In this document: one piece after another, positions 4,541 to 43,100 of the stretch | Layout: each line of letters starts with the position of its first letter | How positions within the stretch are numbered: the stretch's first letter is position 1 | Origin: Amyelois transitella | Taxonomy: Eukaryota > Arthropoda > Insecta > Lepidoptera > Pyralidae | Length of the DNA stretch: 64,000 nucleotides | Direction of reading: 5' to 3' | NCBI RefSeq assembly: GCF_032362555.1 | Contig: NC_083530.1 | Span: 5,672,001-5,736,000 of the forward strand | Program-made: the position numbers and the translations under genes | The notes under the pieces: model-generated | Told to the model about the DNA's origin: nothing | The model's input: the letters and a program-made list of their open reading frames with translations, nothing else | The model's database searches: none

Positions 4541-4845
4541 GTATGTATGCCATCAAAATATTTTGGAAAGTTAGACAAAATCTGTAGATAAATGAAAAAA
4601 TACTTCCAATTTGAATAAAAATCAATCTATAATTAAGTAAGAAAAGGTTTTCGTTCACAATTATTCACAAATGATACCAGTGTGAGTGAAATACTCTCGA
4701 GGCTTTGTCGCGCGCGTAATTGGGTAGCTGAACTGAAAGGTCATGCATTCATATTCGATCTGTTTTTTCCAGGATGAATATTGCTGTGAAATAAAGATTT
4801 CTGGACTTCGTATACAAATACAATAATAGTTTGCAAGAAGAGTTA

Positions 4846-7260
4846 ATGGTTTGGAGGGAGCAGGAACACGGTGAACCATCCGATGAAGATATGGCTTCAG
4901 ATCAACCAGTAAAGAAGAAACAGAGAATCGATGCGCCCGACATAGACGATGTCAGCGACAGATCTGGCGAGGATGTTCTCACTGAAATATTTGAATCTGA
5001 GACTGCGGCTGAAACCACTGAGGAATTCCCAATTAGAAATGGAGAATCTCCTGATAGTGGCACCGTAAGTGAGGATGCCGTTGATTGCACTTCGATTATA
5101 CGAATCCCCAGTAGCAGTAATGTAGCAATAGTCCCGTCATGCTCCAGCGCTACACCAACGTGGAGCTCGGATGATGATAAACTCCTTTCTGAACTACGGC
5201 TGTTGCAGCAGGCCCTTGTTGGGCAGTGTCTGTGCAGGTTTGATGAAAATTTAATGTTACAATTGCTGGACCGTCCTCTACACATTGTTACGTGGCCCCT
5301 CACCTGTTCACTTACGTATCTGTCATCAATGCAGCTACTATTTGACATTTACTTAAAGCAGAACGCTGTAGGCACAATATGTTCAAAGTTGATGCAAGCA
5401 TGTGACATATTTGTTAGGAATAGGCACGATTGGATCACGGAAGTGATTGATTTAGCAGATCATCATAACAAGTTTATCACATTCGTTGCAAGTAGAGTTC
5501 TAGCCAGCTTCTTGATTGTTGCCAAGGATACAGTAAACGAGAACTGGCTACATCAAATAGCTGAAAATATATATTCCTTTGATAAAATAAACAGAATAAC
5601 CGTACAGAAAATTAATTTCACTTTGGATATTATTAAAAGGATAGTGGAATGGAAAGATGTTGAACAGCATCCTTTGGATGACAGTAATTACATAAACTCA
5701 GCGAGTACTCTATGCGTACAGGCGGATAATCCGTTCCGGAGTAGTGTAGGTTACGGCACCAATACCACTAATGGTGACATTCCTTCCAGCTCACAAACCA
5801 ATCTCCATAGTGCCTTCTCAAATTTGCAAACCCACAGTGCCCCCTCTACATCTTTGGAACATACAACAGTAGACAGACCAAATGCCTTTAAATTACACGA
5901 TCCAGTATTAAAGTTAAATGTGTCAGCTGAACGAGTGAGAACTCCTTCCCCTATTCCTACCCATGTAAGAATAGAAAGGGTGAACGAACATGGTTGTGTC
6001 ACAGTTCTACTAAGAGATTCAGAATCTTTCGACACTGCACATATTAAATCCTTAACAATAAAAACTTTGGAACACAACTGGCCAGAATTAGTGAAAAATA
6101 TGAAACTCTTATTACGTACGTACCTGAACCTATCTAATGTTGAAAATTGCATACTGACTTTCTTATCCCTATGGGAGATTATTATAAGTGTAAAGGCTAA
6201 CCTTTCTGTGAGAGATACTAAGCCATTCTATGCAGATCTGCAAAGCTTTGTAGACTTATTGAGAAACATCAACCTTCCACAACTCATATACTCGCATCTT
6301 TTGAGATTATTCAATGAAGTTCTGTGCTACGGTTCTACTTTAGCCTTACAAGATGTCTTGCCAGACGAGATATGCAGTCTCGCCCACTCAATTGTAAGGT
6401 TCGTAAAGGATTATAGATTGCTAAATGACATTAGATTACAGAGCAGTAGGAGTGGTTTCGAATTTTTAGGGCACAATTGTACGGTTATACAGGACTACTC
6501 ATTAGGACCTGATCTGTCCACTTCCGTCCAGTTGGTAGATCAAAGTTACGGGGAGGATCAAGAACGAAGTGAAGTGAATAAGACTATGTTACAAAAAATA
6601 TCACTATTAGTGTTGAAATCTATAGCGGTCACCGTAAAGGAAATGAGGTGCGATTCATCTGACAGCTCTATAGACTCCTCTGACTATAATGCGATTCAGG
6701 ACATGCAAATCGTAGAGAGATCCATAAGGGATGTTCTGAAAAAACTTGATGCATTCATGAGAATGAGTCTGGAATTTCACCCGGAAACGCCTTTTACAAA
6801 AATGCTCATCCATTTGTTTAGCGAACAAGACGACTATTTGATAGAATCTATGGTTTGCACCCTAGACATAACAGTTGGCATTGTGTACAGGAATTCCATG
6901 TACCCCGATCTGGCTCCAATGTTGAATCCGATTACGTCATTCATGGAGTTCCTTAAGGTGGTTTCTCATGACAGCGATGTCCTATTAGATTATCTTGTGA
7001 GCAACGAGACTTGCTTCCTGTTGTATTTACTCAGATTCTTGAAGTATGTACGAAGGAATTGGCCGAAATTCTTAGAGACATGCCAACTAGCTGATTCTAG
7101 TGGAACGCGAGCTCTTGATGACACCATGCGGGTACTTATCAGGCTACGTTTACAAATAAGCAGGTTAGTATCCAAGTCTCTGTTCCCGTACAACATCAGC
7201 CCAGTGCTGAGGCTGTTGGATGTCTGTGAAAGTTTGTATGAGGGCAACGAGTTTAGTTGA
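4846..7260 (+). CDS. lin: Lines homolog (LINS1/WINS family)
   Basis: A single open frame of 804 codons from the ATG at 4846. In Drosophila, Lines is a nuclear regulator of Wingless and Hedgehog target genes and of epidermal and hindgut patterning. What shows it: an acidic, Ser-rich N-terminus with a basic stretch (PVKKKQR) that may be a nuclear signal; a helical repeat-like body with SRVLASFLIVAKDTVNENWL and DIIKRIVEWKD, blocks of the LINES N-terminal domain; and a C-terminus with LLRFLKYVRRNWPKF and RLVSKSLFPYNISPVLRLLD, the LINES C-terminal domain. The start is uncertain. The frame is open from 4795 but has no ATG before 4846. The ATG at 4891 (MASDQPVKKK) has the better context (G at -3 and +4), and an upstream exon at 4490-4540 is possible. 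A possible 5' UTR donor is at about 4184. No neighbour shares its strand closely, so it is probably an independent gene. Confidence 0.85.
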   Translation: MVWREQEHGEPSDEDMASDQPVKKKQRIDAPDIDDVSDRSGEDVLTEIFESETAAETTEEFPIRNGESPDSGTVSEDAVDCTSIIRIPSSSNVAIVPSCSSATPTWSSDDDKLLSELRLLQQALVGQCLCRFDENLMLQLLDRPLHIVTWPLTCSLTYLSSMQLLFDIYLKQNAVGTICSKLMQACDIFVRNRHDWITEVIDLADHHNKFITFVASRVLASFLIVAKDTVNENWLHQIAENIYSFDKINRITVQKINFTLDIIKRIVEWKDVEQHPLDDSNYINSASTLCVQADNPFRSSVGYGTNTTNGDIPSSSQTNLHSAFSNLQTHSAPSTSLEHTTVDRPNAFKLHDPVLKLNVSAERVRTPSPIPTHVRIERVNEHGCVTVLLRDSESFDTAHIKSLTIKTLEHNWPELVKNMKLLLRTYLNLSNVENCILTFLSLWEIIISVKANLSVRDTKPFYADLQSFVDLLRNINLPQLIYSHLLRLFNEVLCYGSTLALQDVLPDEICSLAHSIVRFVKDYRLLNDIRLQSSRSGFEFLGHNCTVIQDYSLGPDLSTSVQLVDQSYGEDQERSEVNKTMLQKISLLVLKSIAVTVKEMRCDSSDSSIDSSDYNAIQDMQIVERSIRDVLKKLDAFMRMSLEFHPETPFTKMLIHLFSEQDDYLIESMVCTLDITVGIVYRNSMYPDLAPMLNPITSFMEFLKVVSHDSDVLLDYLVSNETCFLLYLLRFLKYVRRNWPKFLETCQLADSSGTRALDDTMRVLIRLRLQISRLVSKSLFPYNISPVLRLLDVCESLYEGNEFS

Positions 7261-11399: not shown

Positions 11400-11615
11400 A
11401 CAAAATGAGTTAGCCTCGAAGTAAGTTGGAAACTTGTGTTACGAGATACTAACTCAACGGTAGGTACTATATTTTATAATAAATACTTATATAGATAAAC
11501 GTCCAAGACCCAGGCCAATCAGAAAAAGTTCTTTTCTCATCATGTCCTGGCCGGGATTCGAACCCGGGACCTCCGGTGTCACAGACAAGCGCACTACTGC
11601 TGCGCCACAGAGGCC
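11400..11615 (-). repeat. SINE family B, near-complete copy
   Basis: tRNA-like head at the right end (minus strand GCCTCTGTGGCGCAGCAG and a clear GGTTCGAATCCCGG B box), then the body with GGCCTGGGTCTTGG and the tail TTACTTCGAGGCTAACTC. It is the cleanest minus-strand copy in the window. Confidence 0.8.
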
Positions 11616-21717: not shown

Positions 21718-24700
21718 ATGTCGTCTCTGACGAGGTGAGTTTATTTATTTTGTAATTATTTTAATATAAATATAATGATTATTTTGAAGTCATGTTCTTT
21801 ACAACGTTAAGTATTACAACAACAATTTATATTTAAGCTAGTATCGACTCAAAACAAAGTGTGATTTCTGACCAACCACTGACAACGCACCTTGGTAGCC
21901 CGTGTTTGATGATTTTGTTTTGCTATTTTCCAGCCTTTTACCGGCTCCAACACAGCAAGTGTGGGACCGTGATGACGAGTTCAAGGCGAAACGTGTCGGT
22001 AGTGCCTTAGTGGTGTCCCAGAGTAGCGTACCGCCATACGGGCAAAGGAAAGGTTGGGTGCCCCGCAATGAAGAAGATTTTGGAGGTAAATGCGCCGTGT
22101 TGTATATGACTTATAGGCAGTCAAGTTCTACTGCACCCGTTTAAATGTATGTAGCTTGTAATTTTGACACAAACTAAAAAAAACCTTGTTGAATAGAATG
22201 TTTACTTATTTAACTGGGCTTAACTCTTAAAACGGGCCACCGCCAGAGAGGTTGGGGAGGGTGGGGGAGGGTTTGTACGACCCCCCCAAGTATTTTTTTT
22301 TGCCGGAAGCCCCCCTTTTTTATATGAATTTTTGAAAATCTTAAAAATTGCACTAAACAACGCAATATTTTCGGTTTGTCATTGTAAACTGTGTTAATTT
22401 AGTATTACATAATTAGTTTGTCCATTAAACATGTACAATACATTAATTAATATATTTTAGCACAAAAAATAAAGTCAAAACTTTGCTTAAAAGTAAAAAC
22501 AAAAAAGACACTAACTATGAACAGAACGCAATCCACCGTTTCGGTTATGTGCTACTGTCATCTTATCTACTGAAAGTAACTGTCAGTAAATGGACAGCAG
22601 GGGGGCGCAGCCCCCCGGCACGGGGGGGTCGGGGGGTGGTAGCCCCCCGCAATGAAAAAAACAAATAGGTCACAAACCAAACTTGGTTCGGTTAGGTTAG
22701 GTTGGTGTAAACCACCAAAGCGGAGCGAGCGGAGCGTTCAAACTGAGTAAAAAAGTCTAGTATAGGTTAGGTTAGGTTTAACTCACCTTCATCCCTTTCA
22801 TCCCTTCTTACTTTCCCCCCCCTTGCCCATCTGGCGGTTAATGACCTTGAGCACACTTTTTATATGAAAACTTTAAAAATTCGTAAAAAAAATACTATAG
22901 GCTTACGGCAAGGGGGGGTCACGGGAGGGGTGGTGTTACACCCTCCCCCATCCCCCTCCCCCCTCCCCACCCCTCTCCGGCGGTGGCCCGTTTCAAGAGT
23001 TTTACCTTTATAGGTCGCGCGGTGGTTAAAGAACGCTCGGAAAAAATAGTGGGGGCAAACGGCGCATGTGTATATTCGCGCTCAAAAATGCTAAGGGAAA
23101 TGTTTTTTTTTTAATTTATTTAATACTAGCTGTTGTCCCGCAACTTCGCCCGCGTGATTTTCCAAAAAAAAGTAGCCTATGTTTTAACTCGGTTATTTAA
23201 CTATGTATATCCATATCTTATAATATACTTATAATGTTAGTATGGATTTTGTGCCTTATAAATACTTATAATCCCTACTTATATTATAAATGCGAAAATG
23301 TGTATGTGTGTATGTATGTTCAGTTTTCACACTTAACCTGACCTGGCTGAACCAATTTTGATGAAATTTGACATAGTTATATTCAACCGTGGACGGACAT
23401 AGGGTAGGGGCGACTTGTACTGTTTGAGAATTGATATATTATTTTAAGTTGTCGCGTACAAATACGATAAAACAATTTGTGCGCAACAGTACCCAAGAGA
23501 CACGGGACGCGCGAACTCAACGCGGGAAGTAAAGAGTGACTAATCCACCAATACGTGTCGCCGTCGGCGCACACCCGCCCCCCCTCTCTCCTCGTCCCAC
23601 CTAATAGACCTAAAAATTGATCACTGCGCATGCCCCTTCTACTTTTGCCGAGCGTTCTTAAACCACCGCGCGACCTATAACTGTCTATGTGCACAGCAGC
23701 TATCCAAGATGTTTGTATGCTCAGTGTAATCTTTAGTCACAGCTATGCGAGTGAGGCACTGATATTCTGCTCTTTATTATGTTGAATGAATACAGCTTAC
23801 AATTACGGTGATGGAAAACCTGCACATTCAGGCAACTGTATAACCATGATCATAAAAGGTTTCAGTTCCCCTGCAAAAGCTGTCAGATGGAAGTCACTTT
23901 ATATACAAACTTGACTTATCCATTGTGCGCCTTCGGCTCCCCACCAGAGTGGTGACGATATAACCAGGACTATAGCCAGGAGGAAGATGATAAAGTTAAG
24001 AAAAAAAATTGTTATATCCACATGTTAACTGAAACATGTTGTGCTTACTGAAACTTCGTTTGCAGATGGAGGGGCGTTCCCCGAGATTCACGTGGCACAA
24101 TACCCGCTGGGTATGGGAGCGCGGGGCAAGGAGAGCACATCCAACGCTCTAGCGGTGCAACTGGACGAGTCTGGACATGTGAAATACTCGGCTATAGCTC
24201 GACAAGGACATAGTGCTGATAAGGTATGTTAACATCAATTTTTTAATGATCATCATGAGATTATTAAGGTCAGGACATCCCTGATTTGAAAAATATATCC
24301 TGAGAAACAGATTTAGTCATGTGTATATCCATTGAGGTAGACAGAGCCAGGAGTCCCAGATTGCTAGCCCATCACCTATAAGAAAAATCCTTAGTTTATT
24401 AGTCTTTCCCTTAGTCGTCTTTTACAACATCCATGAAAAGGTTATGGAGTGGTCCTATTTTTGAGTGCCGGTAACTACATGTCACTGTTGAGAAATAAAT
24501 TTTTTGAAAAGGCTTACTTTGTGTAATGTGTAGCTAACATCCTTCTCCCTTATAAAGAAAGAAAGAAAGAAAAATCGTTTATTTGGTACATTAACAAAAT
24601 ATAAATTGGAATTAGTGAATTATCACACCTCTAATTAAAGAAATCTTTATTTTCAGATTATCTACTCCAAACTGACAGACCTCCTGCCTTCGGAGGTGTT

Positions 24701-27700
24701 GGCCGAAGACAACCCGACTCTCCAAAAGCCGGACGATGAGGACATCCAAGAAATTACAGAGAAGACGAAGCTGGCACTGGAGAAACTGACTAACGCTAAG
24801 ATTTCTGCTGCGATGCCTGTTAAAGCTGCTCCCAAAGCTGTGAGTTGATATTCCTTTTTGTTAGGGGTGTAATGCCGAAGGACTCCGAATTCCTTGCGGG
24901 GTAAACAGTAAAGAACCTTAAAAAACTAAAAGGTTACGTCCAGCTGTTTTGCTTCAAATGGAACTGAGATTCAAATAGTGACAGGTGCAAGCCCATCGCC
25001 TAAAAGAAGAATTCCAAGTTTATAAGCCTACCCCTTAGTCACCTTTGCGACATCCATGGCAGAGAGATGGAGTGGTCCTAACCTTTTTTCTATTGGTGCC
25101 GAGAACGACACGGTGTGTTATGTATCGTGTTAAATGATGCTGCTCTAAATTCAAATTCGTGTTTTCGAGCAGCGATAGAACCAATCATTAAGTAGCACTG
25201 ATAGTGGTTCATGTTTTCAGGCGCCCGCGCAGTACATCCGCTACACTCCGGCGCAACAAGGGGGCGCGTTCAATTCCGGAGCTAAGCAGCGGGTTATCAG
25301 GTTAGTTTGTTTGTTTCTTAAAAATAATTATTGTAAATTTTATTCTGTGTCCTGGCTTTAGTTCCGGTTGCATCCTCACCACTCTGGAGAGAAGCCTGGG
25401 GTATTCCTTTGACCATGGATCCTAGATTGTGCGAGTCAGCAGTTTTACACGAAGCGACTCCCGTCTGACCTCCACAACCTTTGCAGGGGAACCTAACTCG
25501 TATTGGATTGATCATGGTTACACATCCAGTAGCCTGAATGTGCAGGTTTCCTCACGATGTTTTACCTCAACGTAAGAGCATTGGTTAGTTTTAAAGTAAG
25601 CGTAAATGTAAAAACGTAAATTTATTCCATTCGGATCCAGGGGATCAGAATACACAATTCCAATTCAAAAGTTTTATTCATTATTGTTATAGAACACTTA
25701 ATAATTGTCATATCTTTTGGTTACACAACATTGGTTGACGTCAAATAAATTACTTAAGATAAGCTTACCGCAGTGCAGAAGAAGCGGTAACAAACTGCAC
25801 TGCAACATTTTCTTCAACAACGTCAACTTTACAAACATAGAATAGAAATAGAGGATGTGAACAGATCTTTCAATTCCCCCACAGGATGGTAGAAGCCCAA
25901 GTGGACCCCATGGAGCCCCCCCGCTTCCAGATAAACAAGAAGATCCCGCGGGCGGCGCCTTCCCCTCCAGCGCCGGTGTTGCACTCGCCCCCCAGGCGGG
26001 TCTCCGTCAAACAGCAGAGAGACTGGAAAGTGCCGCCGTGTGTGTCGCACTGGAAGAACGCTAAAGGTGAGTGAGCTCTGATGCTGCTGAATGTGGATGA
26101 TGATGGGGTCTTAGAATTAATTAATTCATATGAATTAGTTAATAACGCGTAGCTAATTAATGTCATTGTAATTAAGAAAATTTTGCCTTAAATGTTTTAC
26201 ATTATTATAGGATACTTCATATGCTTAAAAATTGTCGAATCTTTTGATTTCACATGATAGGGATGTGGACTGTACTCAAATAAGTATAAAATTTTACCAC
26301 AAAAAGGTAGTTTCTATAGTAAAAATAATAAAAAAACACAATATTTTCCTCAATAAACAAGGGATCATTTTTTTATTTAATAAAATGTAATTAAATATTT
26401 CACCCTCAAGTCACGTGACAATGAACACCAATCAAAATTCGTGACGTCACGCGTTGCAATACTTACAAGAATTTTCGCTGTCAAGTATTATGGTGATTTG
26501 CGTCCGATTTTCTTTTTGAATAAATTTTTAAAGGTTTTCCCATAATAAAAAGTGGATATATTGAGGCAGATAGTTCAAATTTGCCGTGTGGTTTCCGGCA
26601 CTAATATAAAAGGATAGGACCACTCCATCTTTCTCCCGTGGATGTCGACTAAGGGATATGCTTATAAACTTGGGATTCTTATAGATGATGGGCTAGCAAC
26701 CTGTCTCTGTTTGAATCTCAATTCCAACATTAAGTCTTGCGCCAATCTACGAGCCTAGTCTCGAGCGTGCCACCTCCGCCATGGGGTTGGGCGACCACCA
26801 GGTAATGGCTAGCCTTACCCTGGCATGCGGGGCTCAGCTGGGGCGGACATTATTTTTCCCTTGCGCCTCGTGGGGATCGCATGGCTGCAAATTTTAAAAA
26901 GCACCTAAGTGGTGGCGATGGTGCCCTCACCCCATCACGTTCCTGGCGGGAGCGGTATGCGGTCTGCTGAAAGCCGCTTTGCGACGATGAATGTAAGAGG
27001 AGGAATGAAGGATAAGATTGAGGAAGTATGCCAGATGATGGATGGAAGACGTTTGGATGTGTTGTGCGTGAATGAAACGAAGCGGAAAGGATGCGACGCG
27101 ACGCAGCACGGCCCTTACACGGCGTATTGGTCTGGAATTTCCAGTACCAGCCGAGGCTGTCAAGGGGTCGGTCTAATTCTTTCTGCACGAATGGCTGAGT
27201 GTGTGAATGAGTAAGAGTGTGTCAGCCCTCGCTTTCTTTGGATTAGGCTGAAAGTTGGAATCACTCGGATCTTCGTTCTAGGTGTTTATGCACCGTGGGA
27301 TGTGGGTTCGAGGGGTACAACAACAGCAAAAAGAGAAGACGAGGAGTTCTGGAATAGTGTAAGAGAAGTATTGAAAGTTACCAAGCCAAATGAGAAGATT
27401 ATTATGCTAGGTGATTTTAATGGATGGGTGGGTGTAAAGCGTGATGGATATGAAAAGGTGCTTGGTGCGTGTGGTGACGAAAAGGTGAATGATAATGGAA
27501 GAAGTGTATTAGAAATTTGTCTAGAGTGGGATCTTTTTGTGTCGAACTCAATGTTTCGACATAAAAAGATCCACACCTACACAAGAGTGGAAGGTATTTT
27601 AAAAAGTATGATAGACTTTGTGATTGTAGATGAAAGATTGAAGAACAAAGTGCTGGATACCCGTGCATATGGCGGTGCTGGCATTGACTCGGACCATTTA

Positions 27701-30700
27701 CTGGTGATATCCCGGATAAGGGGTATCTTCAATCGCTGGCGGCAAAGGGTTAGGGAGCAAACTAGCGCTTTAGAAAGAGTGAAAGTAGAAAATTTGCAAG
27801 ATATGGATGTAGGCAAGAAGCATATTAATAGACTGAAGGATGAATTTGAAGATTTAGATGAGATGAGCGATATTTAAGATGGATGGAAGGAATTTAAAGA
27901 AAGAATTGTGAAAGTAGCTGTTGAAGTGTGTGGTGTAAGTAGAAGAAGAAAAGGAAAAAATCACAAAAGTGCGTGGATGAGTCAAGATGTGCAAGAACTT
28001 GTGCGAGAAAAGAAGAAAGCATGGCTGGATTTGTTAGCAGCAAAAGCTAACTTGAGAATGCAAAAGGTTATGGATGAAGATGTGAATGAAGCACGTAAGG
28101 AATATAAAAAAATGAAAGATTTGGTTAAGAAAGTTGTTAATAGAAAGAAAGAAGAGTATAAAGAGGAATTTGATAAAAGGCTTTCAGAAGACTTTCAGTC
28201 AAATCTGAAAGTAATCTGGCAATCCGTAAGATCAGCCCGAGGAAAAACTATAACCAGAGAGCTGACCAGTATCAGAAGCCAGGATGGAAGCGTTGTGAAA
28301 GGAGAAGAATGTGCGCTAAAGATATGGAAGGACCATTTTGAAAGTTTATTTGAAAAAAAAGGAAGGAAACAATAAAGATTTCTGCTATAAAAATGAAAAG
28401 AGAATGCCATGGAAGGCGAAATTGAAATGTTCGAAATTAAGCATTTAAGAGTATGAAAGCGTGGAAGGCTGCTGGGTATGATAGAGTGTCGGTCGAGATG
28501 CTAAAAGCAGGAAAAGGCGTAGAAGTTAGTCAGTTGTACTGCCTTTTCTATTTGTGTTGGATCTTTTGGTACTCGGCCGAAGCGGCCGAGTACCAAAAGA
28601 TCCAACATCCAAATCCAAAAGATTGGTGTATGACTGTTATCGTGCCACTTTACAAAGGAAAAGGGTCACAGCTGGACTGCAAAAATTATCGTGGTATAAG
28701 CCTGCTTAGCGTCGTCGGCAAATTTAAAAGGAAATGGTGTACTGATCAGGTCTTTTCATTGCGATGCATAGCCGAAAAGTTTTTGGCCAAGAGTCAAAAA
28801 GTCTATTGCTCATTCGTAGATCTGGAAAAGGTCTATGACAGAGTTGAGAGGAATGAATTGTGGTCAGGATTTCTGTCTCTTAATACGAGCACTGAAATCC
28901 TTATATGAGGATTCGAGTGCTTGTGTCAGGATAAACGGAGCGCACGCTGAGTGGTTTAAGATTGAGAAAGGCGTTAGGCAAGGATATGTGGCGTCACCGT
29001 GGCTGTTCAACCTATTTATGGATAGCTGTTTGACAGATTTATGTATGTATGTACATATCTACCATTACAGACTTAATGTAATGCGATAGTGTATAATCAA
29101 GCTGCCCTTGTTGATTGAGCAATGCGTTCCCTCGGGCAGGCTACACGATCCCGCTGGACAAGCGGCTGGCGGCGGACGGGCGCGGGCTGCAGCAGACGCA
29201 CATCAACGAGAACTTCTCGAAGCTGGCGGAGGCGCTGTACATCGCGGACCGCAAGGCGCGCGAGGCGGTGGAGGCGCGCGCGCAGCTGGAGCGGCGCCTG
29301 GCGCAGCGCGAGCGCGAGCGCAAGGAGGACCACCTGCGGGCGCTGGCGCAGCGCGCGCGCGACCACCGCGCGGGTACTGGCACACTGACACACTGACACA
29401 CTCACACACTGACACACAGCTGGAGCGGCGCCTGGCGCAGCGCGAGCGCGAGCGCAAGGAGGACCACCTGCGGGCGCTGGCGCAGCGCGCGCGCGACCAC
29501 CGCGCGGGTACTGGCACACTGACACACTGACACACTCACACACTGACACACAGCTGGAGCGGCGCCTGGCGCAGCGCGAGCGCGAGCGCAAGGAGGACCA
29601 CCTGCGGGCGCTGGCGCAGCGCGCGCGCGACCACCGCGCGGGTACTGGCACACTGACACACTGACACACTCACACACTGACACACAGCTGGAGCGGCGCC
29701 TGGCGCAGCGCGAGCGCGAGCGCAAGGAGGACCACCTGCGGGCGCTGGCGCAGCGCGCGCGCGACCACCGCGCGGGTACTGGCACACTGACACACTGACA
29801 CACTCACACACTGACACACAGCTGGAGCGGCGCCTGGCGCAGCGCGAGCGCGAGCGCAAGGAGGACCACCTGCGGGCGCTGGCGCAGCGCGCGCGCGACC
29901 ACCGCGCGGGTACTGGCACACTGACACACTGACACACTCACACACTGACACACAGCTGGAGCGGCGCCTGGCGCAGCGCGAGCGCGAGCGCAAGGAGGAC
30001 CACCTGCGGGCGCTGGCGCAGCGCGCGCGCGACCACCGCGCGGGTACTGGCACACTGACACACTGACACACTCACACACTGACACACAGCTGGAGCGGCG
30101 CCTGGCGCAGCGCGAGCGCGAGCGCAAGGAGGACCACCTGCGGGCGCTGGCGCAGCGCGCGCGCGACCACCGCGCGGGTACTGGCACACTGACACACTGA
30201 CACACTCACACACTGACACACAGCTGGAGCGGCGCCTGGCGCAGCGCGAGCGCGAGCGCAAGGAGGACCACCTGCGGGCGCTGGCGCAGCGCGCGCGCGA
30301 CCACCGCGCGGGTACTGGCACACTGACACACTGACACACTCACACACTGACACACAGCTGGAGCGGCGCCTGGCGCAGCGCGAGCGCGAGCGCAAGGAGG
30401 ACCACCTGCGGGCGCTGGCGCAGCGCGCGCGCGACCACCGCGCGGGTACTGGCACACTGACACACTGACACACTCACACACTGACACACAGCTGGAGCGG
30501 CGCCTGGCGCAGCGCAGTGTACTGGCACACTGACACACTGCCATACTGACACACTCACAAACCTTCGCATTTATAATATTAGTACAATCTGATCTGATCG
30601 ACTGACGTCCATCGAACACCGCTCGGTCCCCAGGTACTATTAGTGTTATCCTTCGATTCGGATAGCGCATTCAAGAAGATGAGAAAAACAATCATATTAT

Positions 30701-33700
30701 CTATCTCTACTAATGATAAAGCTAATGATAAGATTAGTAGCTTTCTATGTTTGTAACGAATAAACTCAAAAACTAACTGAACCAATTTTGATGAAATGAC
30801 GTACACAGTTGGAATAAACCGGGTGAAGCCACGGCCGGCCGCTAGTGTTTACATAAAATTTACCTCTCGGCAATATCGATAAATTATTTTTTTTTAACCT
30901 CCTTCAAAAACACAGGAATTCTCAATTCAACCGTATTTTAATAATTTATTTTCCACTTTACAAAGGTGAACCTTTACATTATTTTATAACTAGATTGTAT
31001 ACATTTAATCGAGTAACTATTCTCCCTTCAACCAGGCATTCGCGGCCCGGAGGACGAAGAACAAGAGGAGGCGGACGAGAGCGGACTCACAGCGGCCGAG
31101 AGGGACAAGCTGAGGGCGGAGAGGCACAAGGATAGGCAGAGGGAGAGGAACATAGCAAGAGCGGCGCCGGACAAGAGGTACACACATACATGTGTTCATG
31201 TATTTATCCCTTACAGGACAGACAGAGTTGACAGTATCGAAAAGATTAAAAGGCCACTTTCAGCTGTTTGGCTTAATGATAGAATCGAGATTTGAGGGCG
31301 GAGACACAAGGATAGGCAGAGGGAGAGGAACATAGCAAGAGCGGCGCCGGACAAGAGGTACACACACGTGTGATAACGTATTTATCCCTTACAGGGCAGA
31401 CAGAGGCGACAGTCTCGAAAATACTAAAAGGTCACGTTCAGCTGTTTGGCTTAATGATAGAATTGAGATTCATATAGTGACAGGTTGCTGGCCCCGTCGC
31501 CTACAAGAAAAATACCAAGTTTATTTGCATATCCCTTAGTCGCCTTTTACGACATTTATAGGAAAGAGATGATTGGTAATATTGTAGTGCCGCAATTCTG
31601 AAATTATAAGAAGACAAAAGTCATGATTCTATTTTTGTTCTATTCTCATATTTTTTTTTTTATTATAAATATGCTTTTGTGTTCAAACTTAAAAATTGAC
31701 ATCAAAATTAAAAATGTAACGTGATGGTGTACGATCTTAACAAATTTAATTGTAAACAGGTTTAATTTTGCATGTACTTAAAGTACTTTTAGTTTGTTTG
31801 AACGCGCTAATCTCAGGAACTCGAAAAATTCCTTTTGTGTTGAATATAGACCATTTATCGAGGAAGGCTTAAGGCTATATAACATCACGCTGCAACTATT
31901 ACGAGCGAAGAAATAATGGAAAATGTGAAAAAAAACGGGGAAAATTATTCATCCTTGAGGGCTTCAATGATGCCCAAAATAACTATTCCACGCGGACGAA
32001 GTCGCGGGCACAGTTAGTATTTTATATACTTTACAGCATAATATACTGCAAAATTGTTAGTTCACTAAATTGAATTAGAAAAAAATGTATACATATATCG
32101 ATAATCTGCCTGTCCTGGTGAAGGGTCAGGTCAAAAGTGCCCGAAACCGCCGAGCTTGCATGAAGAGAGTTATGAATGTGGATGAAGCAAAGGAAGTATG
32201 CAGGGATCGTGGCAAGTGGAAAGAGGTAGTCTCTGCCTACCCCTCCGGGAAAGAGGCGTGAGTTTATGTATGTATGTATATATCGATTGTTAATTTGTAT
32301 GTTTGTCCGCAGATCTAAACTAGTGAAAGACCGTGAACGCGACATCTCAGAACAGATAGCTCTAGGGCTCCCGGCGAAGACGAACCAGGGCGGGGAAGGC
32401 ATGTTCGACCAGAGACTGTTCAACAACAGCAAGGGAATGGACAGCGGTGAGCGTTGTATATCTACACTAATATTATAAAGAGGGAAACTTTGTTTGTTTG
32501 TTTGTTTGGTTGTAATGAATAGGCTGAAAAACTACTGGACCGATTTTAAAAATTCTTTCACCATTCGAAAGCTACATTATCCACGAGTAACATAGACTAT
32601 ATTTTATTTTGGAAAAAAATAGGGTTCCGTAATATATTTGGATTTTTCGGACACAAACTGAAAAAAATCAACCAAAAAGTTACTTATTTTGCGTACGCTG
32701 CCTAAACTACGAAAGATAGAACCATAAAATGTTTTAATTAATTGTAGATCTTAAAAATATCTACAAAAAAGTCCGCGACACACTACACCTATCTATGTCG
32801 AGTGAGGCACAACAACCACATTTTTATTTAAAAATCTTTAATTTTGTTTGGTCTACATTTAAACGCGTTTTCTTTACTCATGCTATTAATCCTTATCAAA
32901 ATAAATAATTTCATCAATAAGTACAGTTTATGTTGATAATATTTGGTCTTCGAATGATTAAAATTGGACGATTGGTTTTGAAGTTGTGGTGAAATTAAAA
33001 TATTACGATTTCTGCTGCACGGCCCGTTGCGAAGTGAACAAGACTTAGTTAGCCGCTTTGCGGGCGGTCCTTTAGTTAGTTCTAATAGAGATATATTTAG
33101 TATCGGCTGTGCATCCGTGCGAAGCCGGGGCGGGTCGCTAGTATATATATATACTAGCTTTTGCCCGCGACTTCGCCCGCGCAAATGTATTTTACATTAT
33201 AAGGATACGCCATAAAATTTCATGTACTTACAATTGTTCGACGTTCAAGTGATAACGTATTTTCTTACATCATTGTTATACATACATACATACATACATA
33301 CATAAAATCACGCCTCTTTCCCGGAGGGGTAGGCAGAGACTACCTCTTTCCACTTGCCACGATCTCTGCATACTTCTTTCGCTTCGTCCACATTCATAAC
33401 TCTCTTCATACAAGCTCGGCGGTTTCGGGTACTTTTGACCTGACCCTTTATCATTGTTATAACAAAAAAAAATTCACGTTTTCCCCAGGTTACGGCGACG
33501 ACGAAGCCTACAACGTGTACGACAAGCCGTGGCGTAACCAGGACTCGGTCGGCGCCCACATCTACCGGCCGAGCAGGAACGCCGACAAAGACAATTACGG
33601 CGGAGACATGGACCAGTTGGCTAATACCCGCAGGTATAGTATACCACGTCTATGACCCGTGCGGGGTGGGCGGAGACAATTGATGATTTAGATAGATAGA

Positions 33701-35499
33701 TAAACTTACTACTACTGCTTATTGCACCATAAGAAAAAGTGAAACAGAAAACATTATTTACTTTGGGATAGGTATAAAATATACTATGAAATTTTCGATT
33801 TTAATTTTTTCGCATAGTTCCATCCATACTAATATAAATGATACAAGATTTGTACGATAATCTTGACTGCCCTTATAATTTGCATACATATAATCAGGTC
33901 TCTATCCCTTGCGGGGTAGACGGAGCTAACAGTCTCAAAAAGACTGGAAGGCCACGCTCAGCTGTATGGCTTCATGATGGAATTGAGATTCAAATAGTGA
34001 CAGGTTGCTAGCCCGTCACCTTAAAGAAGAATCCCAAGTTTACAAGCCTATCCCTTAATTGCTTTTTACCAGATCCATGGGAAAGATTTGGGAATGATTC
34101 TAAAGGTTTCTAAAGTGCCGAAAACTACACGATTCCATTTATATTTTTACAGGACAAATTACACAGATTGACTTATCCTCGAAATAAGTTCGTTACTTGC
34201 GTTACGAGGCACTAACCTCGACTATACTTCATTTTACTATATACTTATAACTTGACGGATAAAATATTTTTTTTTCTCAGATTCGTAGCCGACAAAGAAT
34301 TCGCGGGCACCAGCAGTAACAACACTCGAGCCGGGCCTGTGCAGTTTGAGAGAGACAACCCTAACGCTAGAGACGAACCGGTGACATATTTTATTACTAT
34401 ATATTTTTATACTATCTTCTTATATACAGGGTGACTTTTAATTCAACTGCATAAATTTAAACTGTTAAGTGTACTTATCTAAAGGATATTTAAAAACGTT
34501 AAAAGAAAAATATCGGTTCATATTTCAGAAAGTACGAAAAAAAAAAATTTCTATCATGCAATTTGATAGAATTTTAATCTCAGTGTTATGAAATTTAGGT
34601 TGAATGTCGCAATGCGCTATGGCCATGCGGAGTTCAGTAGATAGCGTAAACGGTTAGTAACCATTTCGCACTGTGAATCTTGACACTAGAAAAATAATTA
34701 ATTTTTAAGACATTTATTTACATGTTTAGTTTTAATTTCTTTTTTGAGGGTTCTTTAAATGTGAAAATGATGACGTTTAATTTAAATAAAAATAGGCTCA
34801 AACTGCTCAGAAGCATGGGTTTAGTCTATGTTTAAAAGGATGCAGTTGTTTTAAATGTCACCCCGTATAAAATTCTCGTGTCACAATGTTCGTTCCCGTT
34901 CTCCTCCGAAATGGCTTGACCGATTCTCACGAAATTTTGTCAGCATATTGAGTAGGTCTGAGAATCAGCCAACATCTTTTTTTCATACCCCTTAGTGATG
35001 AGGGATGTGCACCTTTAACATTTTTTTTTACTAGAAATTACTTTTAAAATATATTTATATGGCAAAACAACGTTCGCCGGGACCGCTAGTACATACATAC
35101 ATAACATACATACATAAAAATCACGCCTCTTTCCCGGAGGTGTAGGCAGAGACTACCTCTTACCACTTGCCACGATCTCTGCACACTTCCTTCGCTTCAT
35201 CTACATTCATAAGCTTCATGCAACTTCATTTTTGACATATTACACAGATCGATTTAGAATCCTCGAAGTAAAACAATCGCCGTTAAAGCTAGTGTTTTAT
35301 AGTATTCCTTTTTGACAAATTACACAAGTAAAACAAATAAACAAACAAACAATTTCCCCAGCCCCGACAACAAACGGAGGCGGACTTCGACCCGTTCGGC
35401 CTGGACCGGTTCCTGAGCGAGGCCAAGCGCGCCGACAAGCCGGGCCGCAAGCGGGAGCACGAGCGGCCGCACGCGCTCGGGAAGAAGCGGAGGGAGTAG
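21718..35499 (+). CDS. Bx42: SNW1/SKIP homolog (Drosophila Bx42), spliceosome and transcription coregulator
   Basis: Twelve exons join in frame to 554 aa: 21718-21734, 21934-22085, 24066-24223, 24657-24839, 25221-25300, 25885-26066, 29140-29373, 31036-31177, 32313-32446, 33489-33633, 34281-34380 and 35362-35499. SNW1 is a spliceosome component that also acts as a coregulator of Notch/CSL and nuclear-receptor transcription. Visible family blocks are SLLPAPTQQVWDRDDE at the start, PPYGQRKGWVPR, IIYSKLTDLLP, the SNW core PPRFQINKKIPR...GYTIPLDKRLAADGRG, HINENFSKLAEALYIADRKA, a charged coiled region, RAAPDKRSKL, RDISEQIALGLP, DQRLFNNSKGMDSG, DPFGLDRFL and a basic end KKRRE. Length fits human (536 aa). 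All introns are GT-AG. The signature tripeptide reads S-H-W, not S-N-W. Exons 7, 8 and 12 each have partial tandem copies beside them. Confidence 0.93.
22220..23005. mobile_element. G/C-biased TIR element in SNW1 intron 2
   Basis: Inverted ends: ACTCTTAAAACGGGCCACCGCC at about 22226, and its partner GGCGGTGGCCCGTTTCAAGAGT ending at about 23000. They are followed inward by G-runs on the left and C-runs on the right. The interior has further inverted runs around GGGGGGCGCAGCCCCCC (about 22603-22619) and AT-rich filler. No transposase frame is present. The right end lies about 10 bases from the next transposon (23011), so two elements sit side by side. The class is unknown. Confidence 0.55.
23011..23677 (-). 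mobile_element. TIR transposon, copy 2 (inverted relative to 10576-11241)
   Basis: Same roughly 30-bp TIRs and same interior as copy 1, in opposite orientation, 667 bp against 666, with TA on both sides. By eye the copies are nearly identical, so both moved or were duplicated recently. The minus-strand frame at 23383-23694 is the counterpart of that in copy 1 and is not a gene. Confidence 0.8.
23808..23985 (-). repeat. SINE family C
   Basis: On the minus strand it reads CCTGGCTATAGTCCTGG, then ATCGTCACCACTCTGGTGGG and an AACCTTTTATGATC-like block to CTGAATGTGCAGGTTTTCC. Other copies are at 25350-25590, 37155-37510, 56435-56575, 57240-57350, 62240-62540 and 63148-63235. The longer copies end in a tRNA-like GGTGGGATTxGAACC segment, so this is probably a second tRNA-related SINE. 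Confidence 0.6.
24335..25125 (-). repeat. SINE family A copies flanking SNW1 exon 4
   Basis: Two minus-strand copies, at about 24335-24480 and 24890-25125, lie on either side of exon 4 (24657-24839). A short (GAAA)n run is at 24556-24572. Confidence 0.65.
25350..25830. repeat. SINE family C and a jockey LINE 3' fragment in SNW1 intron 5
   Basis: Family C runs on the plus strand at about 25350-25590 (TCACCACTCTGGAGAGAAGC to ACGATGTTTTACCTCA). A minus-strand piece of the jockey 3' UTR follows at about 25675-25830; its reverse complement contains CTGCAGTGCAGTTTGTTACC. Confidence 0.6.
26583..26735 (+). repeat. SINE family A fragment
   Basis: Starts GCCGTGTGGTTTCCGGCAC and breaks off after CAATTCCAACATTAAG, where the RTE-like element begins. 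The abrupt join suggests that the element inserted into this SINE or that the two recombined. Confidence 0.65.
26738..29060 (+). mobile_element. RTE-like non-LTR retrotransposon, disabled, in SNW1 intron 6
   Basis: This is the longest copy of the family. From about 26984 it encodes an AP-type endonuclease: ATMNVRGGMKDK, LDVLCVNETKRKG with the catalytic-type Glu, then across a stop GVYAPWD, IIMLGDFNGWVG, and DSDHLLV with the His of the active site. From about 28453 it encodes a reverse transcriptase: VIVPLYKGKGSQLDCKNYRG and ISLLSVVGK, then after an internal deletion CTDQVFSLRCIAEKFLAKSQ, FVDLEKVYDRVE (Asp of motif A) and KGVRQGYVASPWLFNLFMD. It breaks before the Y-x-D-D motif at an ATGTATGTATGT run. 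Proteins of this type are often mis-annotated in insects as craniofacial development protein 2. Stops, frameshifts and an inserted hairpin make it inactive. Confidence 0.8.
28555..28607. repeat. perfect 25-bp palindrome with a 3-base loop
   Basis: TGTTGGATCTTTTGGTACTC... pairs exactly with its reverse complement across a loop of AAG at 28580-28582. It sits in the reverse-transcriptase frame, where relatives go directly from a CW motif to PKDW, so it is an addition to the element. Confidence 0.85.
29286..30559 (+). repeat. 134-bp tandem array made of an exon 7 fragment plus a 46-bp mini-intron
   Basis: Nine complete 134-bp units (starts 29286, 29420, 29554, 29688, 29822, 29956, 30090, 30224, 30358) and a broken tenth at 30492. 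Each has 88 bases identical to the 3' part of SNW1 exon 7 (codons for LERRLAQRERERKEDHLRAL and on) and 46 bases of GT...CACACAG. The first unit is the real exon end; the other eight sit in intron 7. By eye the units are identical. Minus-strand frames of 133 aa across the array are artefacts of the repeat, since three 134-bp units are a multiple of 3. Confidence 0.95.
31111..31480 (+). repeat. tandem duplication of the SNW1 exon 8 end with adjacent intron
   Basis: The last roughly 65 bases of exon 8, its donor (AAGAG|GTACAC) and part of a minus-strand SINE A recur at about 31294-31480. The second exon copy starts directly after the SINE sequence GATAGAATCGAGATT, with no acceptor. The copies differ at several bases and by a 2-base gap, so it is older than the exon 7 array. 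Confidence 0.8.
31385..31600 (-). repeat. SINE family A in SNW1 intron 8
   Basis: Minus-strand copy from the ATCCCTTACAGGGCAGACAG end to CTTTTACGACATTTATAGG. A partial duplicate of its 3' end lies at 31200-31275, produced by the local tandem duplication. Confidence 0.65.
31785..32017 (+). mobile_element. Helitron-like element, 5'-truncated
   Basis: Contains TTGAACGCGCTAATCTCAGG, ACATCACGCTGCAACTATTA and ends CGCGGGCACAGTTAG, where the expected CTAG has become TTAG. Confidence 0.6.
32107..32280 (+). mobile_element. RTE-like LINE tail just upstream of SNW1 exon 9
   Basis: Plus-strand tail with GAGTTATGAATGTGGATGAA and CCGGGAAAGAGGCGTGA, then (TATG)n. It ends about 33 bases before exon 9, so its tail forms part of the acceptor region. 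Confidence 0.65.
32461..33141 (+). mobile_element. long Helitron-like element in SNW1 intron 9
   Basis: Starts TCTACACTAATATTATAAAG only 14 bases after exon 9 and ends GGCGGGTCGCTAG. The interior includes AACTACTGGACCGATTTTAA and GAAGCCGGGGCGGG near the 3' end. A relative is at 36519-36934. No Rep/helicase coding is present. Confidence 0.55.
33282..33452 (-). mobile_element. RTE-like LINE tail with (CATA)n
   Basis: Five CATA units at 33282-33302, then the minus-strand ORF2 tail, ending about 36 bases before SNW1 exon 10. It is one of several copies near exon boundaries in this gene. Confidence 0.65.
33885..34260 (-). repeat. SINE family A and a fragment of SINE family B
   Basis: SINE A on the minus strand at about 33885-34130. 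It is followed by a piece of the SINE B tail (ACAAATTACACAGATTGACT) at about 34152-34235, running up to SNW1 exon 11. Confidence 0.6.
34864..35225. mobile_element. Helitron-like element followed by an RTE-like tail
   Basis: Plus-strand Helitron-like copy at about 34864-35089, ending GCCGGGACCGCTAG. A minus-strand RTE tail (TCACGCCTCTTTCCCGGAGG) follows at about 35091-35225. Both lie in SNW1 intron 11. Confidence 0.55.
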
Positions 35500-36150
35500 G
35501 GGGGGGGGGGTGAGTTTCTCTATTTTATTTTATTTTTTTTGTCAAAATACACAGATTAACGAGTTACGTAGTAACCCAACTATGGTATATTTAATACGAG
35601 TAATAAATGACCGCACGCCCTCGGGAAGAAGAGGAGGGAGTAGGGGGGGGGGGGTCTCTATTTTTATTATTTTTTTGTCAAAATACACAGATTAACGAGT
35701 TATGTACTAATCCAACTATGGTATATTTAATAATAAATGACCGAACGTTGTTGGGAAGAAGAGGAGGGAGTAGGGGGGGGAGGAAGTGAGTGTCTCTATT
35801 ATCATTTTTTTGTCAAAGATTGAGTTAGCCTCGAAGTGAGTTAGTATAGTATATTTAATACGAGTAATAAATGACCGCACGTTGTTGGGAAGAAGAGGAG
35901 GGAGTAGGGGGGGGGGGGGGGGAATGTGAGTGTCTCTATTATAATTTTTTTTGTCAAAGATTGAGTTAGCCTCGAAGTGAGTTAGTATAGTACCTATATT
36001 TAACACGAGTCATAAATGACCGCACGTTGTTGGGAAGAGGAGGAGGGAGTAGGGGGGGGGGGGGGTGTCTCTATTTTTATTATTTTTTTTGTCAAAATAC
36101 ACAGATTAACGAGTTATGTACTAATCCAACTATGGTATATTTAATAATAG
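35468..36150 (+). repeat. tandem array of SNW1 3'-end cassettes
   Basis: Five units of 130-145 bp starting at 35468, 35612, 35742, 35876 and 36021. Each begins with a copy of the last codons of SNW1 (CGCACG...GGGAAGAAG...GGGAGTAG), then a long G-run, a fragment resembling the SINE B tail and, in units 1-3, AATAAATGAC. Unit 1 is the real end of the gene. Units differ at many bases, unlike the exon 7 array. Confidence 0.85.
35602..35607 (+). promoter_or_regulatory. likely poly(A) signal of SNW1
   Basis: AATAAA 103 bases after the SNW1 stop, at the end of unit 1 of the 3' array. The same signal recurs in units 2 and 3, so alternative ends are possible. Confidence 0.5.
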
Positions 36151-40113: not shown

Positions 40114-43100
40114 CTACTTGTGTTTCAGGATCGTGGTCCTCAGTTTCTCCACGTTAGCGCCGGAGAACTGCTCCACTGGCTTTCCGTTCTTCACGAACAC
40201 GAATGTCGGCATCGTGTTGATGCTGTACTCTGTGGCGATGTCCTCGCACTCGTCAACGTCCACCTGGAATCGAGAAAAAATCCACATTATTTGATCTGAC
40301 CAAATATTCGTATTGAAATCATTAGCTTTTAATTTCATTCATATTTTTCTAGTGTAAACAATGTGCATTCGTCCACTATTTAGATTTAAAGAGTACTACT
40401 TTTTTCTATATTTGTAAATTGACGTCCGGTGAAAATGCTGCAGTGTAGTTTGTTCCGTCGCTTCTTTTAGACATGCGCTTTGGAACTTGTCACTATTTGA
40501 ATCTCAATTCTATCATTAAGCCAAACAACAGCTTAACGTGGCCTATCAGTCTTTTCAAGACTGTTGGCTCTCTCTACCCGCAAGGTATACCACCGTGATT
40601 AAATGTATATACTAAAAAAAATATGTATGAACTGGTAAAGAAACATTCTGATGCAAGAAAAATAACCATTCAACACACTTATGAATGGAATGACAACATA
40701 CATTTCAAATTAATAAAAGTACGTTCATACGATGTCACTGAATGTCACGCTCTTTAAATAATAATATGAATGTTTAACTATTCATATCAGAACGTGAGAT
40801 AAATAAAGATAAAAAATTATTAACATAAAACCGTAGTCTTAGTTAAGACGAGTCGAGTTTACAAATACTTTTTCCTTGTAAGCCTCATCGTAAATTCTTC
40901 ATATTACGTACTAATTAATCACGTCTAAATCCCGGGCGGGGTAGACAGAGCCAATAGTTTTGAAAAGACTGCTAGGCCACGTTCAGCTGTTTAGCTAAAT
41001 AATAGAATAGAGATTAAAATAGTGACAGGTTTCTAGCTCATCGCCTAAAAGAATTTTATATGCTTATCCCTTAGTCGTATTTTACGACATCCATAGAAAC
41101 GAGATGGAGTTATCCTATACTTTTTTCATACTAAGTCTTCATACTTATTTTGTAAATGCGAAATTTATGTAATTTCACGCTAAATATAACTAAACCGATT
41201 TTGATGACATCTAACAGTAATTCAGCTTATGCATAAAAATAACAATGAAGCTACAATGAAAACCGAGTAAAACCGCGAGCGGACACCAATAAAGCGTTTT
41301 ATTTCTTGTGTACTCAAACGAAGATAATGTAAGTATTATGTGGGAATTAGGATTCAATTTAAACAATGTTAAATGTTTGTCTTTTTGTGTGAATACAGAG
41401 TAGTTAACGGGTATTTGTCATAATTTATATTAAACTAGCTGTGCCCGCGACTTCGTCCGCGTGGAATAGTTATTTTAGGCATCATTGAAGGCCTCAAAGA
41501 TGAATAATTTCCCCGTTTTTTTCACATTTTCCATTGCATATTTCTTTGCTCCTTAAAGTTGCAGCGTGATGTTATATAGTCTAAATCCTTCCTCGATAAA
41601 TGTCTATTCAACATAATAGTTTAAAAAAAACTAAAAAACTACGCTTTATTGCTAATCAAACTAAAAAATAGAAAATAAAAATTAATGACAAAGGAATTAT
41701 AAAACAGTAGTAGCAAGTCGAACAATCAGTTATAGTCAATTACCTCCGATTAAAATTATAAAAAAATTAAATTTATAAACAAAACAATTTAAATCTGAGT
41801 AAAAAGCGTGGGGTGCCTGATGTAGTAAATATTAAAATCATTCTATTAGCATATATTTATGACAAGAGAGTTATGAAAATGAAGTAAAATGCACCCCACG
41901 CTTTTTACTCTGATTTAAATTGTTTTGTTTATAAATTTAATTTTGTTATAATTTTAATCAGAGGTAATTGACTATAACTGATTGTTCGACTTGCTACTAC
42001 TGTTTTATAATTCCTTTGTCATTAATTTTTATTTTCTATTTTTTAGTTTGATTAGCAATAAAGCGTAGTTTTTTAGTTTTTTTTAAACTATTATTTATTT
42101 TCTATTTTTTAGTTTGATTAGCAATAAAACGCGTAGTTGTTTAGTTTTTTTATACAATTATTTTTTGGAAGTTAACACTTCTAGTATAACTATCTTACTA
42201 GAAAAGACTTTCGCAACCATGCGCCCATCGTCGGAGGTTTTCACATCTAACTTTCTTAAAATTATATGTGGCCTGATTGGATTAAATCTCATAATATTCT
42301 CATCATCATGATTCTTTTTTAGGCGATGGGCTAGCAACCTGTCACTATTTGAATCTCAATTCTATCTTAAAGCCCAATAGCTGAAGGTGGCATATCAGTC
42401 TTTACAAGACTGTTGGCTCTGTCTACCCCGCAAGGGATATAGACGTGATTATATGTATGCATGTATGTATGATGATTGTTAAACCCAGTTGAAAAGAATT
42501 TTATAGTGATAAATCACTGTTAATAATATTTTTGACTATCCAGCAAACATAACAATTTTCGATTGTGGCCTTGCCAGGAATCAAACCACAAGATTAAGAG
42601 GCAGATTGATACAGGAACAAAAATATTTCAAACATACCTCCACTGCCTTTATAACCAGGAACGCAACAATGTTTATCGGAAGACATCGTGGCACTTTCGT
42701 TGTAAAACTGTCTTTCACAAAAACAAACACAAACTTGGGACTCCTATCTCAAATAATCAGGTACTTTTTACAGGAGTCCTATCTGCACAACACAGTGAAC
42801 ACAGTCAGAGTCCAATCTCAGATGATAAAATCACACGAATATTCGGAAGAACAAAGCTCGACTCAACGGAAGATTCCAAACTACAAATAACGACAAGTTA
42901 TCAGCACAAAACAAAGTGCAAATAGGTAAATACACAAGCACCGGTATAAAAAAACAGAAAGAAAGTTTACAGGTTTTCTAATCGAATTCGAAACTTACTG
43001 CAAAACTTATTTGACATAAATAAATGTCACTCATTTCTTAAACGAGTATTACAGTGTTGCTATTATAAATAGGCAAAAGATACCTAATGTTAATTCAAGA

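Follow-up and report, generated by a model that had tools for sequence, protein, structure and literature searches.

Genes and features of the locus

The window is the whole stretch of 64,000 nucleotides of Amyelois transitella DNA that was analyzed (C26:5672001-5736000), and the genome searched comprises 327,366,114 bases in 33 contigs. The central gene of the window is SNW1/SKIP, whose 12 exons join into one open frame of 554 codons plus a stop codon. The 554-residue product matches the human SNW1 chain with an E value of 4.5e-202 and the Pfam family SKIP_SNW with 8.7e-68. All 20 genomic matches to the SNW1 protein lie inside this gene, which is a single locus, and they include eight copies of the exon 7 end and one copy from exon 8. 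The features are listed below by window position.

21718-35499, plus strand: SNW1/SKIP coding region, 12 exons
29140-29373, plus strand: exon 7, 234 bp, the last 91 bp of which form the first copy of array A
29283-30515, plus strand: array A, nine identical units with a period of 134 bp, each with the exon 7 end, the donor and the intron start
29374-31035, plus strand: intron 7, 1,662 nt, containing the extra copies of array A
30492-30562, plus strand: damaged tenth unit of array A, most of the exon part missing and the spacer diverged
31036-31177, plus strand: exon 8 of the gene model
31111-31470, plus strand: duplication B (the final 67 bp of exon 8 with its donor and the beginning of intron 8), copies at 31111-31292 and 31293-31470
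35362-35499, plus strand: exon 12, the last coding exon, with the stop codon at its end
35479-36150, plus strand: array C, coding end with stop codon and 3' flank, about 4.8 copies
42003-42163: AT-rich tandem array found by TRF, 66 bp x 2.1
60025-60400: AT-rich tandem array found by TRF, 100 bp x 3.7

The window also contains a homologue of Lines in one long open frame at 4795-7257 (Pfam LINES_N, 4e-87; LINES_C, 1.1e-17). A tRNA-His is predicted by ARAGORN at 59111-59184, and Rfam gives two more tRNA-like matches on the minus strand, at 761-832 and 11543-11614. Broken LINE-like open frames occupy intron 6 near exon 7 (27215-28908), the first of which matches Pfam Exo_endo_phos_2 with an E value of 2.5e-6.

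Anatomy of the repeated exon ends

The units of array A start at positions 29286, 29420, 29554, 29688, 29822, 29956, 30090, 30224 and 30358. There are no mismatches across the nine units (9/9), TRF describes the array as 134 bp x 9.2 with 100% matches, and exact period-134 identity covers 29283-30515. Each unit consists of 88 bp of exon 7 with the GCGG/GTACTG donor and a 46-bp spacer ending in CACACAG; counted with the shared CAG, it has 91 bp of exon 7 and 43 bp of intron. The exon part is 82% GC. The damaged tenth unit retains 24 bp of exon, followed by AGT and a spacer that is 88.6% identical over 44 bp. An earlier note on this DNA had named SNW1, its exon 7 and the GCGG/GTACTG donor, counted nine identical 134-bp units and placed eight extra copies inside intron 7. 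The intact 12-exon model and the alignment of the units bear out each of these statements, and the array end that it gave, 30559, is about right, as the damaged unit reaches about 30562.

The left edge of array A has a 3-bp CAG in common with the intronic joint, which is compatible with a tandem duplication joined by microhomology. The perfect identity of the nine units suggests a recent expansion or conversion, as the earlier note had read it. This process would have acted from the exon side, because the damaged unit is distal and the identical units lie next to the exon. The best candidates of a genome search with the array A unit were 17 matches, made up of the nine units, the tenth spacer and seven spacer pieces. 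The seven spacer-like pieces lie on contig C27 (35-38 bp, 89-92% identity), and among these best candidates all nine full units are at SNW1. No viral contig matched a 29-base pattern taken from the unit.

Two other exon ends of SNW1 are repeated. When each of the 12 exons was scanned, downstream repeats emerged for the 3' ends of exons 7, 8 and 12 (z 43, 52 and 21), and no 5' end among the 12 had a clear repeat upstream (highest z 2.2). A look for older copies at the remaining exon ends gave no clear case; the 3' end of exon 2 reached a z of 3.2 with a score of 25, and one of 60 shuffles scored 26. With TRF set to a period of 40 or more and a score of 80 or more, the window contains five arrays, which are A, B, C and the two AT-rich arrays outside the SNW1 exons.

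The two copies of duplication B differ at 0/65 exonic aligned sites (plus one 2-bp gap) vs 13/113 intronic sites. The difference has a Fisher p of 0.0024, or p 0.02 if one exon copy is free to change. Conversion or constraint on the copy would give the exonic identity, which covers 31293-31357. The intronic part contains the head of a dispersed repeat found many times in the window. In array C, an AATAAA occurs in the first three of the five copies, and these may be possible alternative polyadenylation sites.

Similar arrays in helicase-family genes

A search of the genome for Helicase_C gave 90 matches, eight of which are spaced near 195 bp inside one gene. We examined 59 loci, which account for 78/90 matches and 256,566 bases; they came as 30 from the first Helicase_C search, L041, then 20 and then 8. 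Under the same TRF setting, with two rows of array D1 joined and a 70-bp duplication that had been merged with D1 separated, these loci contain 12 tandem arrays. The arrays were classed by reading the sequence, and from sequence alone 8 span an exon 3' end and its donor, 2 span an acceptor and 2 span neither:

D1, DEAD-box helicase: 195 bp, 9 donors, one unit damaged; donor-spanning
D2, DEAD-box helicase: about 177 bp, 6 donors; donor-spanning
E1, gene closest to DDX42: 156 bp, 9 donors, some units damaged or inverted at the edge; donor-spanning
E2, gene closest to DDX42: 162 bp, 6 donors; donor-spanning
L067, closest to Bloom helicase: 95 bp, at least 10.6 copies; donor-spanning
L068, SNF2 family: 296 bp x 2.8; donor-spanning
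L069: 113 bp, at least 3.3 copies; donor-spanning
L062: 80 bp x 2, about 8 bp of exon; donor-spanning, the least certain
L041: 70 bp x 2; acceptor-spanning
L044: 114 bp x 1.9; acceptor-spanning
L030: intron-only, flush against an acceptor
L033: intron-only

The gene with E1 and E2 is closest to DDX42 among solved chains, with an E value of 8.4e-26. A short inverted copy of the E1 unit forms a palindrome in L060 (gene-sense about 1800-1870) and suggests template switching. In L041, the helicase exon with a nine-donor array also has the 70-bp acceptor-end duplication in two copies (gene-sense about 2970-3112). The L030 array, at 1735-2671, is an AT-rich 52-bp minisatellite of 18 copies that stops a few bases before a helicase acceptor. 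A possible exon-end relic in L028, 76% identical, was left out of the count.

These arrays bear on the quality of the assembly. The earlier note had allowed that the identical units could be an assembly effect, and an artefact in the copy number or in array A itself would account for nine perfectly identical units with an exon part of 82% GC. However, a damaged unit is present at the distal end, duplications B and C within SNW1 have diverged, arrays at other loci are variable and the assembly is contiguous, with 33 contigs for 327 Mb. Comparable arrays at other exons, with graded divergence, make a pure assembly effect unlikely, and we regard the artefact, in either form, as quite improbable.

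Pooled over B, D1, D2, E1 and E2, 18/443 exonic vs 34/371 intronic columns vary (p 0.004), although singly only B is significant; damaged or edge copies were excluded (two of D1, one of D2, three of E1 and one of E2). The lower exonic variation is what conversion combined with constraint on the true exon would produce, and use of the copies would produce it too.

Preference for donor ends

About 12% of 150-bp units would be expected to fall on a donor at random, a figure derived from the donor density of SNW1 and not that of the helicase loci. The probability of 8/12 donor-spanning arrays is 1e-5 at an expectation of 11.5% and 6e-4 at 20%. Without L041, which was first fetched for its array, 6/9 gives 1.4e-4 and 3e-3, and when L062 in addition is not counted as donor-spanning, 5/9 gives 0.0017 and 0.02. 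The counting was planned only after the first cases had been seen. Donor-spanning and acceptor-spanning arrays stand at 8:2 (p 0.11), or at 10:2 with A and B of SNW1 (p 0.04), and these counts alone are not decisive. A purely donor-side rule was rejected in view of the acceptor-side duplications in L041 (70 bp x 2) and L044 (114 bp x 1.9).

Exons 7 and 8 both have GTAC donors, from which came the idea that amplification compensates for weak donors. The idea was rejected, as 10 amplified donors and the 9 other SNW1 donors pair with U1 at similar energies (p 0.77), the amplified ones being no weaker. A broader proposal is that, in this lineage, donors act as hot spots where a process tied to transcription or splicing repeatedly generates tandem arrays in conserved genes, that exon definition hides the arrays and that some of them act as copy-number dials. 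RNA-DNA hybrids at exon ends, or conflict there between replication and transcription, would be candidate processes. We consider this proposal doubtful.

The chaperonin family served as a comparison, in which match lists and not DNA were read, and it showed no repeated exon match among 57 matches on 11 contigs. Three pairs of matches with 20-28 query positions in common look like neighbouring exons. L070, a locus chosen for its long open frame in the chaperonin list, has no tandem repeat in its DNA. Match lists are insensitive, since only 1/8 helicase donor arrays (D1) is visible as repeated matches. Because such lists miss most arrays, the chaperonin control neither confirms nor excludes a genome-wide pattern, and as the chaperonin family gave no repeated exon match, a claim for the whole genome is based on one gene family and SNW1.

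Splice signals and reading frame of the extra copies

Acceptors were scored with a weight matrix built from SNW1's own 11 acceptors, a small training set from which each real site was left out in turn. The CACACAG of array A scores -5.93 vs 0.02 to 13.63 for the real SNW1 acceptors. By the same small matrix, which is not an absolute scale, 53% of the 3,443 AGs in the window score as high as the array A AG or higher, and the tract region before CACACAG is 12% T. The description of the copies as splice-ready in the earlier note is thus not supported, as CACACAG does not outscore an ordinary AG of the window. Judged by their sequence, the extra copies appear to be donors without a credible acceptor. 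The nine donors are identical, with a U1 pairing energy of -6.6 kcal/mol, among the strongest GTs of intron 7. On the small matrices, no acceptor or donor of SNW1 scores lower than those of exon 7 (0.02 and 0.08). A role for RNA structure was rejected, since the 134-nt unit folds much like its shuffles (z -0.90); the donor stretch has a z of 0.74 and the spacer is unstructured.

The arithmetic of the reading frame proposed earlier holds, in that among 1-8 extra copies only 3 and 6 preserve the downstream frame. Inclusion of 1, 2, 4, 5, 7 or 8 copies truncates the SNW1 frame. The early stop predicted for a retained spacer is also present: with any of donors 2-9 used and the spacers kept, the protein ends at residue 342 with RAGTGTLTH and a stop codon, which in the true frame begins 20 nt past the first donor. 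Across A, B, D1, D2, E2, L067, L068 and L069, the lengths of the exon parts modulo 3 are 1, 1, 0, 2, 1, 2, 2 and 1; since these values are mixed across the eight arrays, nothing points to selection on frame.

These properties allow two ways in which the copies could enter the mRNA. One, proposed in the earlier note, is that the 88-nt copies are spliced in as mini-exons through 46-nt introns and are productive when 3 or 6 are included, so that the frame is preserved. The spacer has GT...AG ends and four yUnAy motifs, with the branch A 7-31 nt from its end, and splicing of 43-, 49- and 56-nt human introns is reported (PMC4463651). Because of these motifs and these human introns, splicing of a 46-nt intron is not impossible, only unlikely. 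Sequencing reads would then join GCGG to CTGGAGCGG across the spacer. However, the acceptor score of -5.93 and the 12% T tract are poor, and the shifted copies would insert residues rich in Gly/Ala/Pro or Arg/Ser/Trp. The sister arrays show no preference for frame and the exon copies of L067 are only 12 bp apart, which argues against designed mini-exons. Mini-exon splicing is therefore the least probable reading, and we give it very little credence.

The other is a copy-number rheostat, in which some transcripts use later donors and decay because of the spacer stop. Array length would then tune SNW1 output, perhaps with feedback from the splicing machinery. Autoregulation by unproductive splicing, as the earlier note proposed, may be possible for this gene. 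Identical donors among the strongest GTs of intron 7, the weak splice signals of exon 7 and the stop that follows every later donor favour the rheostat. A rule of cross-exon proximity (PMC9225289) predicts use of the upstream donor instead, and the amplified donors of other genes are unremarkable. We judge the rheostat unlikely.

A probable origin and fate of array A

We consider it probable that array A, a minisatellite lying across the donor at an exon end, was expanded or homogenised recently, that it belongs to a class recurring in this genome, and that its extra units are ignored in splicing. An initial tandem duplication may have linked a site in intron 7 with one in exon 7 at the CAG match. 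Unequal exchange, slippage or conversion would then have multiplied the exon-proximal units. Since the introns on either side of exon 7 are long (3,073 nt upstream and 1,662 nt downstream), the exon is presumably recognised as a unit by exon definition. The first donor defines the smallest exon and would be the one used, so that the array would be removed with intron 7 at nearly neutral cost. Recurrent exon-end minisatellites would be tolerated in the same way, as the intact exon is the smallest definable one.

Several observations agree with this silent reading. Canonical joining must work because the 12-exon frame is open and SNW1 has a single locus, and the intactness of that locus suggests predominant use of donor 1. 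When a minigene exon flanked by 365-nt introns was given two identical 5' splice sites, each of the five constructs spliced only at the upstream one (PMC9225289). The long flanking introns of exon 7 and the minigene preference for the upstream of two identical donors make the silent reading likelier, within this analogy.

Other observations count against the silent reading. By the small matrices, the signals of exon 7 are the weakest of the gene, and when both sites were weakened in the minigenes, the two smaller kinds kept the upstream preference, whereas the two larger mainly skipped the exon (PMC9225289). Under intron definition, as the same study notes, a donor lying downstream would be the favoured one. 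By this comparison, skipping and donor competition are the likely risks for exon 7. In duplication B, the 0/65 exonic vs 13/113 intronic differences would also fit constraint on the copy.

Relation to known systems

The units of the 31-bp VNTR of human CBS reportedly carry donors that are used alternatively. This VNTR sits at the boundary of exon 13 and intron 13 (PMC1395315). Array A is likewise a tandem repeat at an exon-intron boundary, and its unit includes the exon 7 end, the donor and the intron start. Unlike the CBS VNTR, array A has a unit of 134 bp, nine identical units and similar arrays at several genes, and it is known here from one assembly. CBS 844ins68 duplicates 68 bp across an intron/exon junction; splicing strongly favours one of the splice-site copies, and the mRNA is normal (PMC2630376). 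This is one extra copy at the intron 7/exon 8 junction and not a long exon-end array.

Intron gain by tandem genomic duplication creates new combinations of splice sites (PMC3443670, PMC2891723), and array A is likewise a tandem duplication that would offer such combinations. In intron gain, a purely exonic segment with an AGGT proto-splice site is duplicated and a new intron is spliced, whereas the segment in array A spans the existing boundary GCGG/GTAC. The CeRep25B intronic minisatellites of C. elegans, which have been linked to alternative splicing, are tandem repeats near alternative exons (PMC4039745). CeRep25B is a dispersed family, in contrast to array A, whose units are copied from the adjoining exon. 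A tandemly duplicated alternative exon does not describe array A, in which only the last 88-91 of 234 bp are copied and no credible acceptor is present. A poison exon is a cassette with a usable acceptor and donor, and by the small matrix array A falls short of this with its acceptor score of -5.93. A premature stop, as in poison exons, would follow in 6/8 inclusion cases and in 8/8 later-donor cases.

Significance

A search of the open literature, mostly without subscription papers, yielded among the papers listed no description of donor-spanning exon-end arrays that recur within an insect genome. Boundary repeats are already known, and their recurrence in SNW1 and several helicase genes merits a genome-wide look. 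The competition of identical 5' splice sites has so far been tested in constructed minigenes. The conserved genes described here provide a natural series in which identical donors number from two to at least ten, and from the RNA of this series the rule that the smallest definable exon wins becomes testable. Should the pattern hold across the genome, it would be one route by which coding sequence accumulates in introns, and annotation would be complicated by false exons and false frameshifts. One would then also ask why amplification seems to favour donor ends over other sites.
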